In this document: positions 32,833-38,953 of the stretch, in pieces
Layout: each line of letters starts with the position of its first letter
Position numbering within the stretch: position 1 is the first letter of the stretch
Assembly (NCBI GenBank): GCA_947476925.1
Contig: CANJSF010000010.1
Location: 1-64,000, forward strand
Length of the DNA stretch: 64,000 bases
DNA from: Rhodospirillaceae bacterium
GTDB taxonomy: Bacteria > Pseudomonadota > Alphaproteobacteria > Rhodospirillales > Rhodospirillaceae
Direction: 5' to 3'
Notes under the pieces: model-generated
What the model saw: only the letters and a program-made list of their open reading frames with translations
What the model was told of the DNA's origin: nothing
Databases searched by the model: none
Translations under genes and position numbers: made by a program

Positions 32833-33498
32833 TCATGCCGCACTAATCGCTGGCAGAATGCTGATCGGAATTGTCGCGACGAGCAAAGTAGCCATAACGA
32901 TATTGAAGGCGCGTTGCCGAGCTGGCGTTGACAGAGTTTGACGCAAGGCCGCACCCACCAGTACCCATAACCACGTGCATGGAATACTCACCAGCATGAA
33001 CGCAACGACCATTGATGCCACCAAAGCAGGCGACGGGGTCGTGGTGAGGGGCGTCATGGCCACGGCAGTCATCGCCATCATCAGTGCTTTGGGATTGAGA
33101 TATTGAAATCCCATGCCTTGCCAAAACGACCAGGGCTTGTCCGATGGTCGAGCTTCGGTCTTGGTGGCCGATGGTGCAGCGCGCAGCATGCTCACGGCAG
33201 TCCACAGCAGGGCGAGCGCCGCCAGAATTTGCAGAGCCTTGACCAAATCCGGGGCGGCAGCCGTCAAAGCCCCGATCCCGATTGCAGCTAGGCTCAGTAA
33301 AGTCACCATCCCCGCCCATATGCCTGCGGCATGGCCGAGGGTTCGCCTCGACCCGAACCGAGCGCCAGAGGACGCCAGCAGGATATTGTTGGGCCCGGGC
33401 GTAATGCTGCTGACAAAGGCAAACATGAGCAGACCCACCAGCCAGGAGGTATCGGAAAAAACGGGGACAAAGCTGATGAGGCTATCGGTTGTGGTCAT
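32833..33498 (-). CDS. LysE family amino-acid exporter
   Basis: A 221-residue membrane protein with about six membrane segments. The LysE/RhtB signature FVSSITPGPNNILLASSGAR follows the first segment, and QYLNPKALMMAMTAVAM is the second conserved block. Family members export amino acids or related compounds. ATG 33498 is chosen over 33531. It is divergent from a MocR-type regulator, sharing a 225-bp AT-rich spacer, which makes it a likely target of that regulator. Confidence 0.88.
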   Translation of the reverse strand: MTTTDSLISFVPVFSDTSWLVGLLMFAFVSSITPGPNNILLASSGARFGSRRTLGHAAGIWAGMVTLLSLAAIGIGALTAAAPDLVKALQILAALALLWTAVSMLRAAPSATKTEARPSDKPWSFWQGMGFQYLNPKALMMAMTAVAMTPLTTTPSPALVASMVVAFMLVSIPCTWLWVLVGAALRQTLSTPARQRAFNIVMATLLVATIPISILPAISAA

Positions 33499-33581
33499 GA
33501 CGCCGATCCTAAAGTGACTGGGAAGTATCAATTGTCCTATTCACGCTAAAAATGTATTGCGTCAATAAATATATTGAACTA

Positions 33582-33597
33582 AGACATATCAGACATA
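33582..33597. promoter_or_regulatory. Direct repeat in the lysE/mocR spacer, candidate MocR site
   Basis: AGACATA occurs twice, starting at 33582 and 33591 (nine-base period), in the AT-rich spacer between the divergent lysE-like and mocR-like genes. MocR regulators are known to bind direct repeats near their own promoters, so this is a reasonable operator candidate, but no second instance was found to support it. Confidence 0.3.
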
Positions 33598-33723
33598 ATT
33601 TCATACAGCTTTTTTAATTTATGCCGTGGTGCGTCCGTGAAACCATCCCAGATCTACAAGGCGTGGAATTGACGGATTTTTCAGGGGCACGCCATTGATT
33701 GGAATACGGGGACGGTTTGTCTT

Positions 33724-35109
33724 ATGACAATGTGGAAGCCTGATCTCACCCGCTATGGCGGTCACCCTGCTGAAGCCCTGGCTGAAGCGATTGCTGACGC
33801 CATTGCCTCGGGCGCGCTGCCACCTGGTACGCGCATGCCTACCCATCGTGATTTGGCCTACGACCTGGGGCTCGCTGTGGCCACCGTGTCTAAAGCCTAC
33901 AGCATCGTTGCGCGCCGTAATTTGGTCAGCGGCGAAGTGGGGCGTGGGACCTTTGTTGCATCAGGGCCCCGGTTGCCGGCCTTGGCTGATCACGAAGGAG
34001 AGACTGCCGGGGCGGTCGATTTGCGAATTTGCATGCCACCCTCGGTTGGGCAAGATGTGGTGTTGGCGGGGGCCATAGAGGATGTTTTGCGTGCGGGCGG
34101 TGCGCGCTCGATGTTGCGCTACCCAATGCCTGGGGGTTCACCGCAGCAACGTGGCGCTGCTGTGATATGGCTAGAACGTGTTTACGCTCGCACCAATCCA
34201 ACCGAGGTACTTTTAACCTCCGGCGCGCATCAAGCCATTGCCGTTGCTCTCGCTACTGTTGTTGGACCGGGCGGGACGTTGCTCTGTGATCCGCTGACAT
34301 ATGCGGGCACTGCGCAGATTGCGAATTTCATGGGTATTCATTTGCGCGCGGTAGATGTCGACGATCACGGCATGGTGCCCGCCTCCTTAGAGGAAGCGAT
34401 CGCCCGCCATGGCGCAAAGGCGGTGTTTTTAGTGCCGACGTTTCAAAATCCAATGGCGTTTACAATGCCGCAGCATCGCCGCGAGGAGATTGCCGAGGTG
34501 GCGACGCGACATGATATCGCAATCATTGAGGATGCAGTCTATGCCGATGTCCTCGATAGTCCACCTGCGGCTATAACTAATATTGCGCCCGAACGTACGA
34601 TCCTGATTTCAAGTTTGTCAAAATCGGTCTGTTCGGGTTTGCGCGTCGGATTTATTCGGCTGCCACCGGAACTGGTTTCCTTGGCTGAAAATCATTTGCA
34701 ATCGCTCGTGCTGGCTAACCCGCCGCTGATGGCCGATGTTGCCGCCAACTTGATCACAACCGGCCGCGCCGATGATCTGCGTCATAAAGTCGCTGCTGAA
34801 ATTGAAGCGCGATACCGCATCGCGCGTACGGCGTTGGGCAATATTCCATTTATTGGAAGCCCACAGTGCCCCCACATTTGGGTGCCGCTGCCCGACCAAA
34901 ATCGCATGAGCGAGATTGCGTCAGCCTTGGCGCGCCAAGGATATTGGGTGGCGGTGGGCCGCGACTTTGCCGTCGCGCGTGACCAATTCCCGGCGGGCCT
35001 TCGTATTGCATTAGGCCCCACACCACATCGGCATAAAATCGCCGAGCTTTGCCAAGCGCTGCGCCAATTGATCATGGCGCCTGTACCCTCGATCAGCGGC
35101 GTAATCTGA
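33724..35109 (+). CDS. MocR-family regulator (GntR HTH fused to aminotransferase domain)
   Basis: A 461-residue protein. An N-terminal GntR winged helix (residues ~10-80: PPGTRMPTHRDLAYDLGLAV, ATVSKAYSIV, GEVGRGTFVAS) is fused to a fold-type I PLP aminotransferase domain. The PLP lysine is in LISSLSKSVCSGLRVGFIR, and HQAIAVALATVVGPGG and EDAVYADV are also visible. Such proteins sense PLP-linked metabolites and control nearby genes. It is divergent from the LysE exporter and seven bases upstream of the halohydrin dehalogenase-like gene, both likely targets. Confidence 0.9.
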   Translation: MTMWKPDLTRYGGHPAEALAEAIADAIASGALPPGTRMPTHRDLAYDLGLAVATVSKAYSIVARRNLVSGEVGRGTFVASGPRLPALADHEGETAGAVDLRICMPPSVGQDVVLAGAIEDVLRAGGARSMLRYPMPGGSPQQRGAAVIWLERVYARTNPTEVLLTSGAHQAIAVALATVVGPGGTLLCDPLTYAGTAQIANFMGIHLRAVDVDDHGMVPASLEEAIARHGAKAVFLVPTFQNPMAFTMPQHRREEIAEVATRHDIAIIEDAVYADVLDSPPAAITNIAPERTILISSLSKSVCSGLRVGFIRLPPELVSLAENHLQSLVLANPPLMADVAANLITTGRADDLRHKVAAEIEARYRIARTALGNIPFIGSPQCPHIWVPLPDQNRMSEIASALARQGYWVAVGRDFAVARDQFPAGLRIALGPTPHRHKIAELCQALRQLIMAPVPSISGVI

Positions 35110-35116
35110 GAACGCC

Positions 35117-35848
35117 ATGACTAAAGGTTTAGTCGCCCTCGTCACCAATGCGACCCATTTTGTCGGGGTGGCGTCTGCCAAGGCCTTAGCCGCCGAAGGT
35201 GCCCGCGTCGTCTGTCATGATTTAAGTTTTTCTGACCCTGCCGCGGGTGCCGCGTTTAGCGTGGCCCATCCCGGCTTTGCGATCACCGCTCAGTGCGATC
35301 CCGATGCCGCGCTGGCTGACGTGGAAACACGCCTCGGCCCGCTCGATGTCTTGGTCAGCAATGATTTTTTTCCTGCCGTTCGCGCACCGATTGATGAAGC
35401 GAAAGTCGACGATCTGCGAGCAGGGATGGAGGCATTGTTTATCACGCCCTATCGCTTTGCTGCCGCCGCAGCAAAGCAGATGAAATTGCGTCGAAGCGGC
35501 AAGATCATATTTGTCACATCAGCCGCTCCGTTGGAAGGGTTGGCGAATTACACGATGTATGCCTGTGGGCGTGGGGCGACTAACGCATTGGTAATCTCAC
35601 TGGCACGTGAGTTGGCCGCATTTAATATTCAGGTCAATGCCGTTGCACCAAACTATGTAGCGAGCCCAAGCTATTTCCCGGCCGATTTGATTGCAAACCC
35701 TGACGCGCTCAAGCGCATGACCGACAAAATTCCGTTACGCAGGTTGGGCACACCAGAAGAAGTTGCCTCAGCCGTTTCATTCCTGGCTTCACCAGGAAGC
35801 AACTTTGTAACGGGTCATATTATGCCGGTTGCTGGCGGCTGGGCCTGA
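35117..35848 (+). CDS. Probable halohydrin dehalogenase (SDR-derived)
   Basis: A 243-residue protein of SDR fold. The SDR cofactor motif is absent; instead it has VTNATHFVGVASAKAL, resembling the halide-site N-terminus of HheC. The catalytic set is Ser135, Tyr148, Arg152 with spacing S-x12-Y-x3-R, where ordinary SDRs have Lys; this is the hallmark of halohydrin dehalogenases. CHDLSF, DVLVSNDFF, PIDEAKVDDLRAGMEAL and IIFVTSAAP all resemble HheC from memory. These enzymes turn vicinal haloalcohols into epoxides and halide, or open epoxides with anions. It is cotranscribed with the MocR regulator upstream. Native substrate unknown. Confidence 0.82.
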   Translation: MTKGLVALVTNATHFVGVASAKALAAEGARVVCHDLSFSDPAAGAAFSVAHPGFAITAQCDPDAALADVETRLGPLDVLVSNDFFPAVRAPIDEAKVDDLRAGMEALFITPYRFAAAAAKQMKLRRSGKIIFVTSAAPLEGLANYTMYACGRGATNALVISLARELAAFNIQVNAVAPNYVASPSYFPADLIANPDALKRMTDKIPLRRLGTPEEVASAVSFLASPGSNFVTGHIMPVAGGWA

Positions 35849-35860
35849 CGGTCCTGAAAT

Positions 35861-37327
35861 CTAACTATTCGCGCGAATAATTTTGGCTAGTTTGGCTGCT
35901 GCCGGAATAATCACTTGCGGTGGATAGCCGGTGAACCCAAGTATCAGCGCAGAACGTGTCGGCCCTGCAAGATAAAGGCGGCTGAGGGCACGTGTTATGA
36001 CGCCGCTTTCTCGCGCTATTTTTTCAATCCGGACGTCCGACATTTTAGATCGCAAATACGCCAATAAATGTAGACCCTGATCAGGCAGAACAATGTCGAC
36101 GAGATCGCCGGCTCTTTTCGTCAATTCAGCGGCTAGCACATCGCGTTGGCGTGTATACATCTGACGCATGCGCCGCAGGTGTGCCAGAAAATGCCCTTCT
36201 GCTAAAAATGTCGCCACGATTGGTTGGTGCAAGCTCGATGGTTGGCGGTCCATGAGATAACGCGACGATAAAAACGATTTGAGTAATGGGCGCGGAACGA
36301 TCACATAGCCGAGGCGCAAACCTGGAAACAGCACCTTGTTAAACGTGCCGACGTAAATAACGCGCTGAGCGGTATCAAGGCTTTGCAGTGAAGTAAGAGG
36401 CCGACCTGAATAGCGATACTCGCTGGCATAGTCGTCTTCGAAGATCCATGCGCCGGTCGATTTCGCCCACCTGATGAGGTCTAATCGTCGCGCCATTGAC
36501 AATACTGCTCCAGTTGGGAATTGGTGTGATGGCGTAACAAAGGCTAGCTTTGCTTTGGGCGCTAAACGCATACCTTGAGCCACATCCATACCGTGCGCAT
36601 CGACGGCAACGGCATGCACTGTCATGCGCGCGGCGCGTAATGCCTGCACCGTCATCGGATAAGCGGGGTTCTCGACCCACACACTGTCACCCTCCGTTAA
36701 GACCGTGCGGATTGTTAGGTCGATCGCTTGTTGTGTGCCTGAAGTGATCAGGATTTGATCGACGTCACAATTCACACCTCGTGCGGCGCGTACATAGCCA
36801 CAAACTGCTTCGCGCAATTCTATTGCGCCGCGAGGGTCGGTATATCCAAGGTGATAGGGGCTAAATGACCGAAAGGTTCGCTGCGTCAACTTTCGCCAAA
36901 CCTCAACTGTGCGGGCATCCACTAAGACGCGTCCGCCAGTGAAGGCACGCTCGTCACCCAAAGTTGGGTTCTCGGGAAAATCATCGTGCCTTTGGATTCT
37001 ATGGTGCGGTGAAGTTTGAACGATATCGTTGGGCAGGTCCGAAGCTATAAAAGTACCTGCGCCGACTTTGCCCGCCACTACTCCCTCGGCCAAAAGGTGG
37101 TTGTAGGCTGCTACGACCGATGCACGCGAGACGCCTAGCCGTACCGCCAGAGCTCTGGTCGATGGTAGTTTTGTGCCAGGTCGCAATTGTTGCGACAGCA
37201 CCGCGTTACGAATCTGACGCGCAATTTGCTCAAAAAGTGTGTTCGGGAACGCTCGATCAATCTGCCAATGAAAGAGTTCTGCCCAAGTGTGACGCGGGTT
37301 TGCCAAGTGGTCTGCTCTGTATCTCAC
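35861..37327 (-). CDS. MocR/PdxR-type regulator (GntR HTH plus aminotransferase domain)
   Basis: A 488-residue protein with GTG start and AAGGA upstream. GntR winged helix at about residues 28-95 (LRPGTKLPSTRALAVRLGVS, RASVVAAYNHLLAEG, GKVGAGTFIAS), then a PLP aminotransferase-like domain (ILITSGTQQAIDLTIRTVL, FEDDYASEYRYSGRP, PLP lysine in YVGTFNKVLFPGLRLGYVI). The PdxR subgroup controls vitamin B6 genes. Here the divergent neighbour is a PPOX-fold flavin protein, which is the probable target. An inverted repeat lies in the shared spacer. Confidence 0.88.
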   Translation of the reverse strand: MRYRADHLANPRHTWAELFHWQIDRAFPNTLFEQIARQIRNAVLSQQLRPGTKLPSTRALAVRLGVSRASVVAAYNHLLAEGVVAGKVGAGTFIASDLPNDIVQTSPHHRIQRHDDFPENPTLGDERAFTGGRVLVDARTVEVWRKLTQRTFRSFSPYHLGYTDPRGAIELREAVCGYVRAARGVNCDVDQILITSGTQQAIDLTIRTVLTEGDSVWVENPAYPMTVQALRAARMTVHAVAVDAHGMDVAQGMRLAPKAKLAFVTPSHQFPTGAVLSMARRLDLIRWAKSTGAWIFEDDYASEYRYSGRPLTSLQSLDTAQRVIYVGTFNKVLFPGLRLGYVIVPRPLLKSFLSSRYLMDRQPSSLHQPIVATFLAEGHFLAHLRRMRQMYTRQRDVLAAELTKRAGDLVDIVLPDQGLHLLAYLRSKMSDVRIEKIARESGVITRALSRLYLAGPTRSALILGFTGYPPQVIIPAAAKLAKIIRANS

Positions 37328-37330
37328 TAG

Positions 37331-37350
37331 TGGTCCTTTTCATCAGACCA
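37331..37350. promoter_or_regulatory. Inverted repeat in the MocR/PPOX spacer, candidate operator
   Basis: TGGTC and GACCA are separated by ten bases within the 70-bp spacer between the two divergent genes, and overlap the ribosome binding region of the minus-strand regulator. Position and symmetry suit a binding site for the regulator itself. Evidence is only the symmetry. Confidence 0.3.
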
Positions 37351-37397
37351 TTGATAACTGTAAAGCAGCGGCAAATCTGGCGCAACTTGAGGTTCGC

Positions 37398-38114
37398 ATG
37401 CCCGACGATTTCCCGATCACAGAGCGCACGCGACTGCGGCGGAGGCCTCAGCGTGGGGCTTACGATCGCGCGAGCGTGTTTGCCATTCTCGATGCAGGAT
37501 TGATGTGTCACGTCGGCTACGTCGTCGATGGCAAGCCGGTTGTCACACCCACGGCCTACTGGCGACATGGCGATGACCTTTACTGGCATGGCTCAGCGGC
37601 TAGCCGAATGTTGAATTCAATTGATGGCGCCGAAGTTTGCATGACAGTAAGCCATCTTGATGGCCTCGTAGTTGCGCGCTCGGCGTTTCACCAAAGTGTC
37701 CAATATCGCTCTGTCATGGTCTTCGGTCAGGCGAAGTTGCTTGCTGATCATGCCGAGAAACGCCTCGCGATGCGTATGTTCATTGAGCGCCTTTATCCCG
37801 GACGTTCAGAAGAAATAAGGGAATCCTCTGACAAGGAACTCGCTTCGATTTCGGTCACTAAGCTAAACATGACGGAGGTATCAGCTAAATTGAAGGACTC
37901 TGGAGTTGTTGACGATGAAGAGGATTATGCCATGCAGGTTTGGGCTGGGGTGATCCCAGTTCGTGCTGTGCTTGGCAAAGCGATTCCCGATCACCGGCTT
38001 TTGGTCTCCCCAGAACTTCCAGCCAACCTTACAGACTTTGCCGAGGACGTAAGACTTGATGATGTTCTGGGTGGGCACGCGGCACACAGGGAAAGCACAG
38101 GTTGCCAGTTGTAA
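37398..38114 (+). CDS. Pyridoxamine 5'-phosphate oxidase-fold flavoprotein (NimA-like)
   Basis: A 238-residue protein with the split-barrel flavin-binding fold: ILDAGLMCHVGYVVDGKPVV, TAYWRHGDDLYWHGSAASRM, VCMTVSHLDGLVVARSAFHQ, SVQYRSVMVFGQAKLL. This matches the subgroup often annotated as pyridoxamine 5'-phosphate oxidase family or nitroimidazole-resistance-like. It probably binds FMN and reduces or oxidises an unknown small molecule. Divergent from a PdxR-type regulator, an arrangement common for this family. Confidence 0.82.
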   Translation: MPDDFPITERTRLRRRPQRGAYDRASVFAILDAGLMCHVGYVVDGKPVVTPTAYWRHGDDLYWHGSAASRMLNSIDGAEVCMTVSHLDGLVVARSAFHQSVQYRSVMVFGQAKLLADHAEKRLAMRMFIERLYPGRSEEIRESSDKELASISVTKLNMTEVSAKLKDSGVVDDEEDYAMQVWAGVIPVRAVLGKAIPDHRLLVSPELPANLTDFAEDVRLDDVLGGHAAHRESTGCQL

Positions 38115-38145
38115 CTCCAGTCGGCTGTTATCGGGCATAAAGGCA

Positions 38146-38298
38146 ATGTCGAAATTCAAAAATCGACAAAAGACAGCGCTGCCGCCATCGAACGAATTGG
38201 CAAATCAAGCCAGTGTGTTACGGTCAGAAGTCTCAAAATTCCTGGCCTCAATACGGGCGGCATATGACTTTCACGATCTCGTGAAGCCTTGGGTTTGA
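38146..38298 (+). pseudogene. Remnant of a chemoreceptor C-terminal tail
   Basis: A 50-codon frame from ATG 38146 (AAAGG upstream) contains SNELANQASVLRSEVSKFLA followed by SIRAA. This closely resembles the extreme C-terminus of methyl-accepting chemotaxis proteins, just after the signalling hairpin. The rest of the receptor is absent, as the sequence upstream is the PPOX gene. It is either a decayed receptor end or a tiny protein born from one. Interest increases with the broken cheR 7 kb away. Confidence 0.45.
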
Positions 38299-38368
38299 GA
38301 TATAGTCTAGGCTGTGCTGCTCGCGGGGGATATCTCGCGCGGCTCATTAACTCTCAAGGAGTATACTC

Positions 38369-38953
38369 GTGAAACGATTCTTGGTCGGTGCGCTACTCGC
38401 AAGCGCCATTGCTGTTCCTGCTTATGCCGCTCTTAAAATGGGTGACAAGGCTCCTGACTTTTCGGCCAAGGCGTCGTTGGCCGGCAAAGAATTTTCATTT
38501 TCGTTGAAGGAAGCTCTGAAAAAGGGACCCGCGGTCGTCTACTTCTACCCGTCGGCGTACACGCAAGGATGCAATATCCAGGCGCATACTTTTGCTGAGG
38601 AAAAAGAAAAATTTGATGCGGCCGGAGCAACGATTATTGGCGTCTCGCAAGATAGCATTGCCCGTTTGAATCTGTTCTCGGCAGACCCTGAATATTGCGC
38701 AGGCAAGTTCCCCGTTGCGTCAGATGTAGATGGTTCAATTGCCAAATCGTATGACTTGACGATGCGCGAAGGCAAACCCGGCATGAAGGATTCAAAAGGC
38801 AACGATATCGATCATGCCTTTACTGAACGCACGACTTTCGTCATTTCGAAGGACAATAAAATTATCGCGACTTTGTCTTCGGCCGACGACAAAATCACCC
38901 CAGCCGATCACGTGGAAAAATCTCTGGCGATTGTTCAGGGTCTGAAAAAATAA
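38369..38953 (+). CDS. Exported peroxiredoxin (AhpC/TSA, Bcp-like)
   Basis: A 194-residue thiol peroxidase with a signal peptide (MKRFLVGALLASAIAVPAYA), hence acting in the periplasm, unlike most Bcp-type enzymes. The peroxidatic motif is YPSAYTQGCNIQAHTF with Cys68; a possible resolving Cys is at 110 (DPEYCAGKF). GTG start at 38369 with AAGGAG just upstream. A strong hairpin terminator follows 24 bases after the stop. Monocistronic. Confidence 0.88.
   Translation: MKRFLVGALLASAIAVPAYAALKMGDKAPDFSAKASLAGKEFSFSLKEALKKGPAVVYFYPSAYTQGCNIQAHTFAEEKEKFDAAGATIIGVSQDSIARLNLFSADPEYCAGKFPVASDVDGSIAKSYDLTMREGKPGMKDSKGNDIDHAFTERTTFVISKDNKIIATLSSADDKITPADHVEKSLAIVQGLKK

Follow-up and report, generated by a model that had tools for sequence, protein, structure and literature searches.

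Halohydrin dehalogenases (HHDHs) are enzymes that remove chlorine or bromine by epoxide formation. They are prized in biocatalysis; little is known of their native roles, to which the neighbouring genes usually serve as the clue. Two motifs, T-x4-F/Y-x-G and S-x12-Y-x3-R, define the HHDHs and set them apart from short-chain dehydrogenases (SDRs) (PMC4989007, PMC11976700), and HHDH activity was confirmed for a selection of 19 motif-picked enzymes once these had been expressed (PMC4989007). An expected catabolic operon is found on a Microbacterium plasmid (NZ_CP089591.1), on which an A-type HHDH gene adjoins genes for an epoxide hydrolase and a glycerol kinase. The window analysed here, a 64,000-nucleotide stretch from a Rhodospirillaceae bacterium, carries a predicted HHDH gene at position 35117; nothing similar to the epoxide hydrolase and glycerol kinase arrangement lies near it, and it stands between two genes for MocR-type regulators (Table 1). 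An earlier note on this DNA had read the gene as an HHDH controlled by the first of these regulators; the three open reading frames that it described lie where it had placed them.

Table 1. Coordinates of the features discussed (window positions, except where a locus is named).
Feature	Position	Strand	Basis or remark
LysE/RhtB-type exporter, divergent partner of MocR1	32833..33531	-	LysE domain; conserved in congeners without HHDH
LysE-MocR1 intergenic region, candidate MocR1 operator	33532..33731		three TGTCYTAK boxes: 33533 (+), 33579-33586 (-), 33718 (+)
MocR-type regulator 1 (MocR1), 461 residues, GntR HTH + aminotransferase I/II fold	33724..35109	+	domain search; orthologs in three congeners
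HHDH-MocR2-PNPOx segment, without counterpart at the site in congeners; takes the place of ppa, from MocR1 to ahpC	35103..38370		synteny
Halohydrin dehalogenase (HHDH), 243 aa	35117..35848	+	motifs T-x4-F-x-G and S-x12-Y-x3-R
MocR-type regulator 2 (MocR2)	35861..37327	-	PdxR model 421 bits, above cut-off
Pyridoxamine 5'-phosphate oxidase-like (PNPOx), Pyridox_ox_2, divergent from MocR2	37398..38114	+	pair conserved in order
AhpC/TSA peroxiredoxin-like gene (ahpC)	38369..38953	+	domain + synteny; syntenic right flank in congeners
DehI-like genes of the nearest relatives	L052:7074-7862; L053:7097-7891		overlap HHDH stop by 4 nt

The protein looks genuine: in each sequence test that was applied it gave the result expected of an HHDH. 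The nucleophile and halide-pocket motif T-x4-F-x-G reads TNATHFVG, and the catalytic motif S-x12-Y-x3-R is present as SAAPLEGLANYTMYACGR, which bears out the catalytic set and halide-site N-terminus that the earlier note had recognized. When solved structures were searched with phmmer, the top match was 6A41, labelled 'dehalogenase' or 'Dehalogenation enzyme' in the PDB (E = 2.4e-64), followed by HheC of Agrobacterium radiobacter AD1 (1PWX, 4.8e-44) and the HheA entries, with generic SDRs far weaker; a profile built from six relatives left the ranking of HHDHs before SDRs unchanged. Identity reaches 44% with 6A41 (over 241 residues), 39% with HheC and 37% with HheA. The AlphaFold model, which is fit for ranking folds but not for judging active-site geometry since it was built from 6 sequences and has a mean pLDDT of 75, likewise had 6A41, HheC and HheA as better matches than any SDR, with HheD2 (7B73) lower. 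That the protein could instead be an NAD(P)-dependent short-chain dehydrogenase with no dehalogenase function is suggested by Pfam, which assigns it to adh_short_C2, a general SDR family, and by matches to NCBIfam SDR models, every one of which falls under its curated cut-off. The catalytic Lys of SDRs is however an Arg here, and the earlier note had tied this alternative to placement among NAD(P)-binding SDRs with an intact Rossmann glycine motif: the glycine-rich cofactor motif (T-G/A-x3-G/A-x-G, or TGxxx[AG]xG) is lost and replaced by TNATHFVG, and the HHDHs of this branch rank above all SDRs in both sequence and fold searches. On motifs and rank order, we therefore reject the dehydrogenase reading as extremely improbable. 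The HHDH assignment is favoured because both diagnostic motifs, the sequence, the predicted fold and the tree agree.

Among the known enzymes, 6A41 is the closest: it carries the same motifs and is the top match by sequence and by fold, although it comes from another bacterial family; in the tree it adjoins a sequence from a genome of the window's own class (G381), and no functional data for it were found in a literature search. The Ser-Tyr-Arg triad, the T-x4-F-x-G loop and the PN(Y/F) loop of HheC and HheA (1ZMO, 4Z9F) all align with the window's protein, whose PNY tripeptide falls on the PNY of HheC. In contrast, the loop that follows PNY is shorter than in HheC and the C-terminal extension of HheC is absent (243 vs 254 residues). 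HheD2 and the HheG-type enzymes share the HHDH family and the SDR fold with the protein, but it appears to be neither D- nor G-type, given that it is only 28% identical to HheD2 in the fold search and that the HheG-type chain 8HQP scores amid generic SDRs; this comparison was made against A, C, D and G references. In the tree, the protein joins four sequences (L052, L053, L055 and L054), all from its own bacterial family, within a 13-member clade of that family, and groups with 6A41 and alphaproteobacterial sequences, while the deep forks that lead to HheC and HheA are too poorly separated for an A to G subtype to be assigned. Sequence comparison thus places it in an alphaproteobacterial HHDH group whose near neighbours are 6A41 and the branch of HheC and HheA. 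If it works as HheC does, Tyr148 would take the proton from the hydroxyl group of a vicinal haloalcohol, with Ser135 and Arg152 assisting; the alkoxide would then displace the halide into a pocket that the T-x4-F-x-G loop and the PNY tripeptide line, and the epoxide would be released, NAD(P) playing no part. Both this reaction and its reverse with small anions, established for HheC, are proposed for this protein, whose activity and substrate are predictions at this stage.

The first regulator could be taken as a clue to function. MocR1 carries GntR and aminotransferase I/II domains, its divergent neighbour carries a LysE domain, and the earlier description of a PLP-binding MocR regulator facing a LysE exporter is thus accurate. 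A GntR HTH fused to a type I aminotransferase domain is present in MocR1 and MocR2 both, and the two resemble the EhuR, PdxR, PdxW and PdxQ groups, being divergent from a transporter (MocR1) or from a pyridoxamine oxidase (MocR2). The best NCBIfam model for MocR1 is EhuR, the ectoine MocR, but an EhuR identity was rejected because the score (383.2 bits) is under the curated cut-off of 480. Regulators of the MocR type commonly act on a divergent gene and repress their own expression, and their targets include LysE/YggA transporters and pyridoxamine oxidases (PMC5320631). The other genomes of the genus indicate that the regulator did not come with the dehalogenase. MocR1 orthologs (78-80% identity) are present in three of these four genomes (G007, G008 and G009), in each case divergent from the same LysE gene, while none of the four carries an HHDH. 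The order MoaA, HPT, response regulator, CheR, S8-type protein, LysE, MocR1 is common to the window, G007 and G008, and the shorter G009 contig has S8, LysE and MocR1 in order. Judged from this comparison, the MocR1-LysE pair predates the HHDH gene at the site. The adjacency is moreover not conserved, since a MocR gene adjoins the HHDH in 0 of 46 other HHDH loci. The usual clue therefore misleads at this locus: because MocR1 stood first and with a LysE partner of its own, it says little about the purpose of the HHDH.

MocR1 may nevertheless affect HHDH expression. The HHDH reading frame begins 7 nt past MocR1 on the same strand, and the 64 kb holds three copies of the pattern TGTCYTAK, all of them within the LysE-MocR1 intergenic region. 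This total is what chance alone would give in the window (2.74), so that the notable property is position and not number, and because the pattern was picked after the region had been inspected, the clustering is suggestive only. The outer boxes stand at corresponding places, as the 7-mer TGTCYTA, in all four congeneric genomes including that of the window, an exact middle box is confined to the window and G009, and the third box runs into the MocR1 start codon; no box lies near the HHDH start. A scan of the + strand from 33400 to 35848 flagged no promoter-like or terminator-like site, which is weak evidence because MocR1's own promoter likewise went unflagged. As the 7-nt gap has no room for a promoter and none was flagged, the HHDH gene probably forms the distal end of the MocR1 transcript, which would start at an autoregulated MocR1 promoter. 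Control by MocR1, as claimed in the earlier note, may thus be true in an indirect form, through co-transcription. The stronger form, in which MocR1 is a dedicated HHDH regulator that senses an amine or amino-acid derivative made or used in the HHDH pathway while LysE exports the product, can draw on the shared strand, on the close spacing with no flagged site in between and on the conserved operator-like boxes at the MocR1 start, which imply an autoregulation that the HHDH would share. It is at odds with the MocR1-LysE pairs that stand alone in three congeners and with the absence of an adjacent MocR gene from the 46 other loci, and the text of the MocR regulon survey names no dehalogenase (PMC5320631); we consider it unlikely. 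That the HHDH has been placed under an amine-sensing, autoregulated MocR promoter to form a new circuit, one that couples haloalcohol or epoxide chemistry to amine export by LysE, appears more improbable still. The tight spacing is also what selection for co-expression would produce, and it would count against an incidental adjacency.

The segment that carries the HHDH seems to be what is new at this site. DNA homology to the congeners ends at position 35102 and restarts at 38370, at the ahpC start. In G008 and G009 MocR1 is followed by ppa (inorganic pyrophosphatase, named from sequence) and then by ahpC, while G007 has an unrelated gene after MocR1, which argues that the site is variable. 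No direct repeats of note were found at the segment borders, and the GC content of the HHDH gene (55.5% vs 55.0% for the window) is in no way unusual and gives no compositional sign of a foreign origin. MocR2 and the PNPOx gene are also absent from the congeners, which favours gain of the segment over loss by the congeners; on the other hand, the HHDH tree follows the bacterial family, so that the gene may have been in the lineage for long and have disappeared from the congeners. The second regulator has a partner of its own: in 12 of 19 loci across the order, a MocR2 homolog and a PNPOx homolog are no more than 1.5 kb apart (one by a partial match, and with loci ending at 1.5 kb), of which set only one locus, in G146, has an HHDH beside PNPOx. 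Taken together, we propose that the HHDH gene was acquired at, or moved to, a position flanked by the resident LysE-MocR1 divergon and ahpC, where it replaced ppa, and came to stand next to a second, independent divergon, MocR2-PNPOx. The adjacency to two MocR genes would then be incidental, since one divergon was resident and the other is independent, and a true HHDH that reached its place by gain or relocation, with both MocR genes incidental to its function, is an explanation that we hold with good confidence. The suggestion in the earlier note that the regulator points to an amino-acid or amine-related native role accordingly loses its ground, given that MocR1-LysE occupies the same site without HHDH in three congeners and that MocR2 has its PNPOx partner. 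Two further observations concern this segment. In G146 (L056/L186) the HHDH gene is convergent with a PNPOx gene whose product is 53-54% identical to that of the window, the sole other HHDH-PNPOx neighbourhood seen, and because the two genes are directly adjacent a weak but real link between them is possible. A soluble pyrophosphatase seems to have been replaced by the HHDH segment (window 35103-38370 vs L172 and L171), and a search of the whole genome to which the window belongs (G000) did not find ppa, which may have been lost into an assembly gap since the assembly consists of 81 contigs.

Beyond the genus, a search under strict thresholds found HHDH homologs in 13 of the 73 family genomes, in 22 of the 317 from the order and in 42 of the 385 sampled from the class, counts that rest on E-value and not on a motif check of each homolog. 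HHDH-like genes of this group are thus common in Alphaproteobacteria, roughly one in ten of the sampled genomes having one at this threshold, and the description of a rare enzyme class does not fit there. Motif 2 was found by pattern in 43 of the 47 loci with a recovered HHDH gene and motif 1 in 37 (the first 60 residues of the ORF calls were scanned, and several calls are N-terminally extended). The survey adds some 45 uncharacterised sequences of interest for biocatalysis. When close relatives were sought on plasmids, the only hit was of A-type, at 36.5%. When a conserved operon was sought in the 47 loci, no gene family recurred outside local clades, the most frequent neighbour family being found in 9 loci, all from related genera of one family. 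Given that no partner gene is conserved, a stand-alone function can be argued, for example the handling of epoxides or haloalcohols.

If the protein is a true HHDH with incidental MocR neighbours, two native roles can be considered, on which the immediate neighbours of the gene are uninformative. First, it could act with a DehI-like protein in breaking down halogenated compounds of natural origin, as its closest relatives might. In the two nearest (66% and 64% identity; G041 and G042), a DehI-related gene begins just ahead of the HHDH stop and overlaps it, and its product matches 2-haloacid dehalogenase chains in the PDB (E = 1.4e-12), which points weakly to halogen chemistry or halogenated carbon. 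The Pfam DehI match, however, is seen in only one of these two relatives and at 24.4 bits is under the cut-off of 28.9, neither a DehI match nor an EHN-type epoxide hydrolase was found in the window's genome, and no partner is conserved across the 47 loci; faint DehI-like matches also occur in congeners that have no HHDH. We regard this role as possible, in a tentative way. Second, the enzyme could work in reverse in vivo, opening epoxides with nitrite, cyanide, cyanate or halide, for example for detoxification. HHDHs take these small-anion nucleophiles in vitro (PMC4989007, PMC11976700), and both the lack of an EHN epoxide hydrolase in the genome and of a conserved catabolic partner at HHDH loci are consistent with such a role, but the neighbours of the gene give no hint of epoxide formation, and we find it rather doubtful.

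The survey also revealed variant copies and unusual neighbourhoods. Tandem HHDH-like genes occur in three genomes of one small-genome genus: L125 (G520:C1:36649-38136), L130 (G412:C6:94862-96333) and L128 (G609:C32:13782-15245). In each pair one copy carries S-x12-Y-x3-R, and in the other the Arg is replaced by Gln and motif 1 has no aromatic residue; such pairs may be formed of a catalytic subunit and a pseudoenzyme partner. In two further HHDH-like proteins, L137 (G138) and L134 (G463), the catalytic Tyr has given way to another residue (judged by position, Ala or Pro) and the Arg is kept; G138 also carries an intact HHDH, L060. The C-terminal part of the HHDH of L013, on a contig labelled as an Acidimicrobiaceae MAG, is near-identical to that of the Rhodospirillales MAG L011, and this contig is probably mis-binned. 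Finally, in four loci from two bacterial families (L104, L108, L119 and L127), the HHDH gene lies at most three genes away from a molybdopterin-binding MoeA/MobA-like gene, the gene names being given from sequence inspection.
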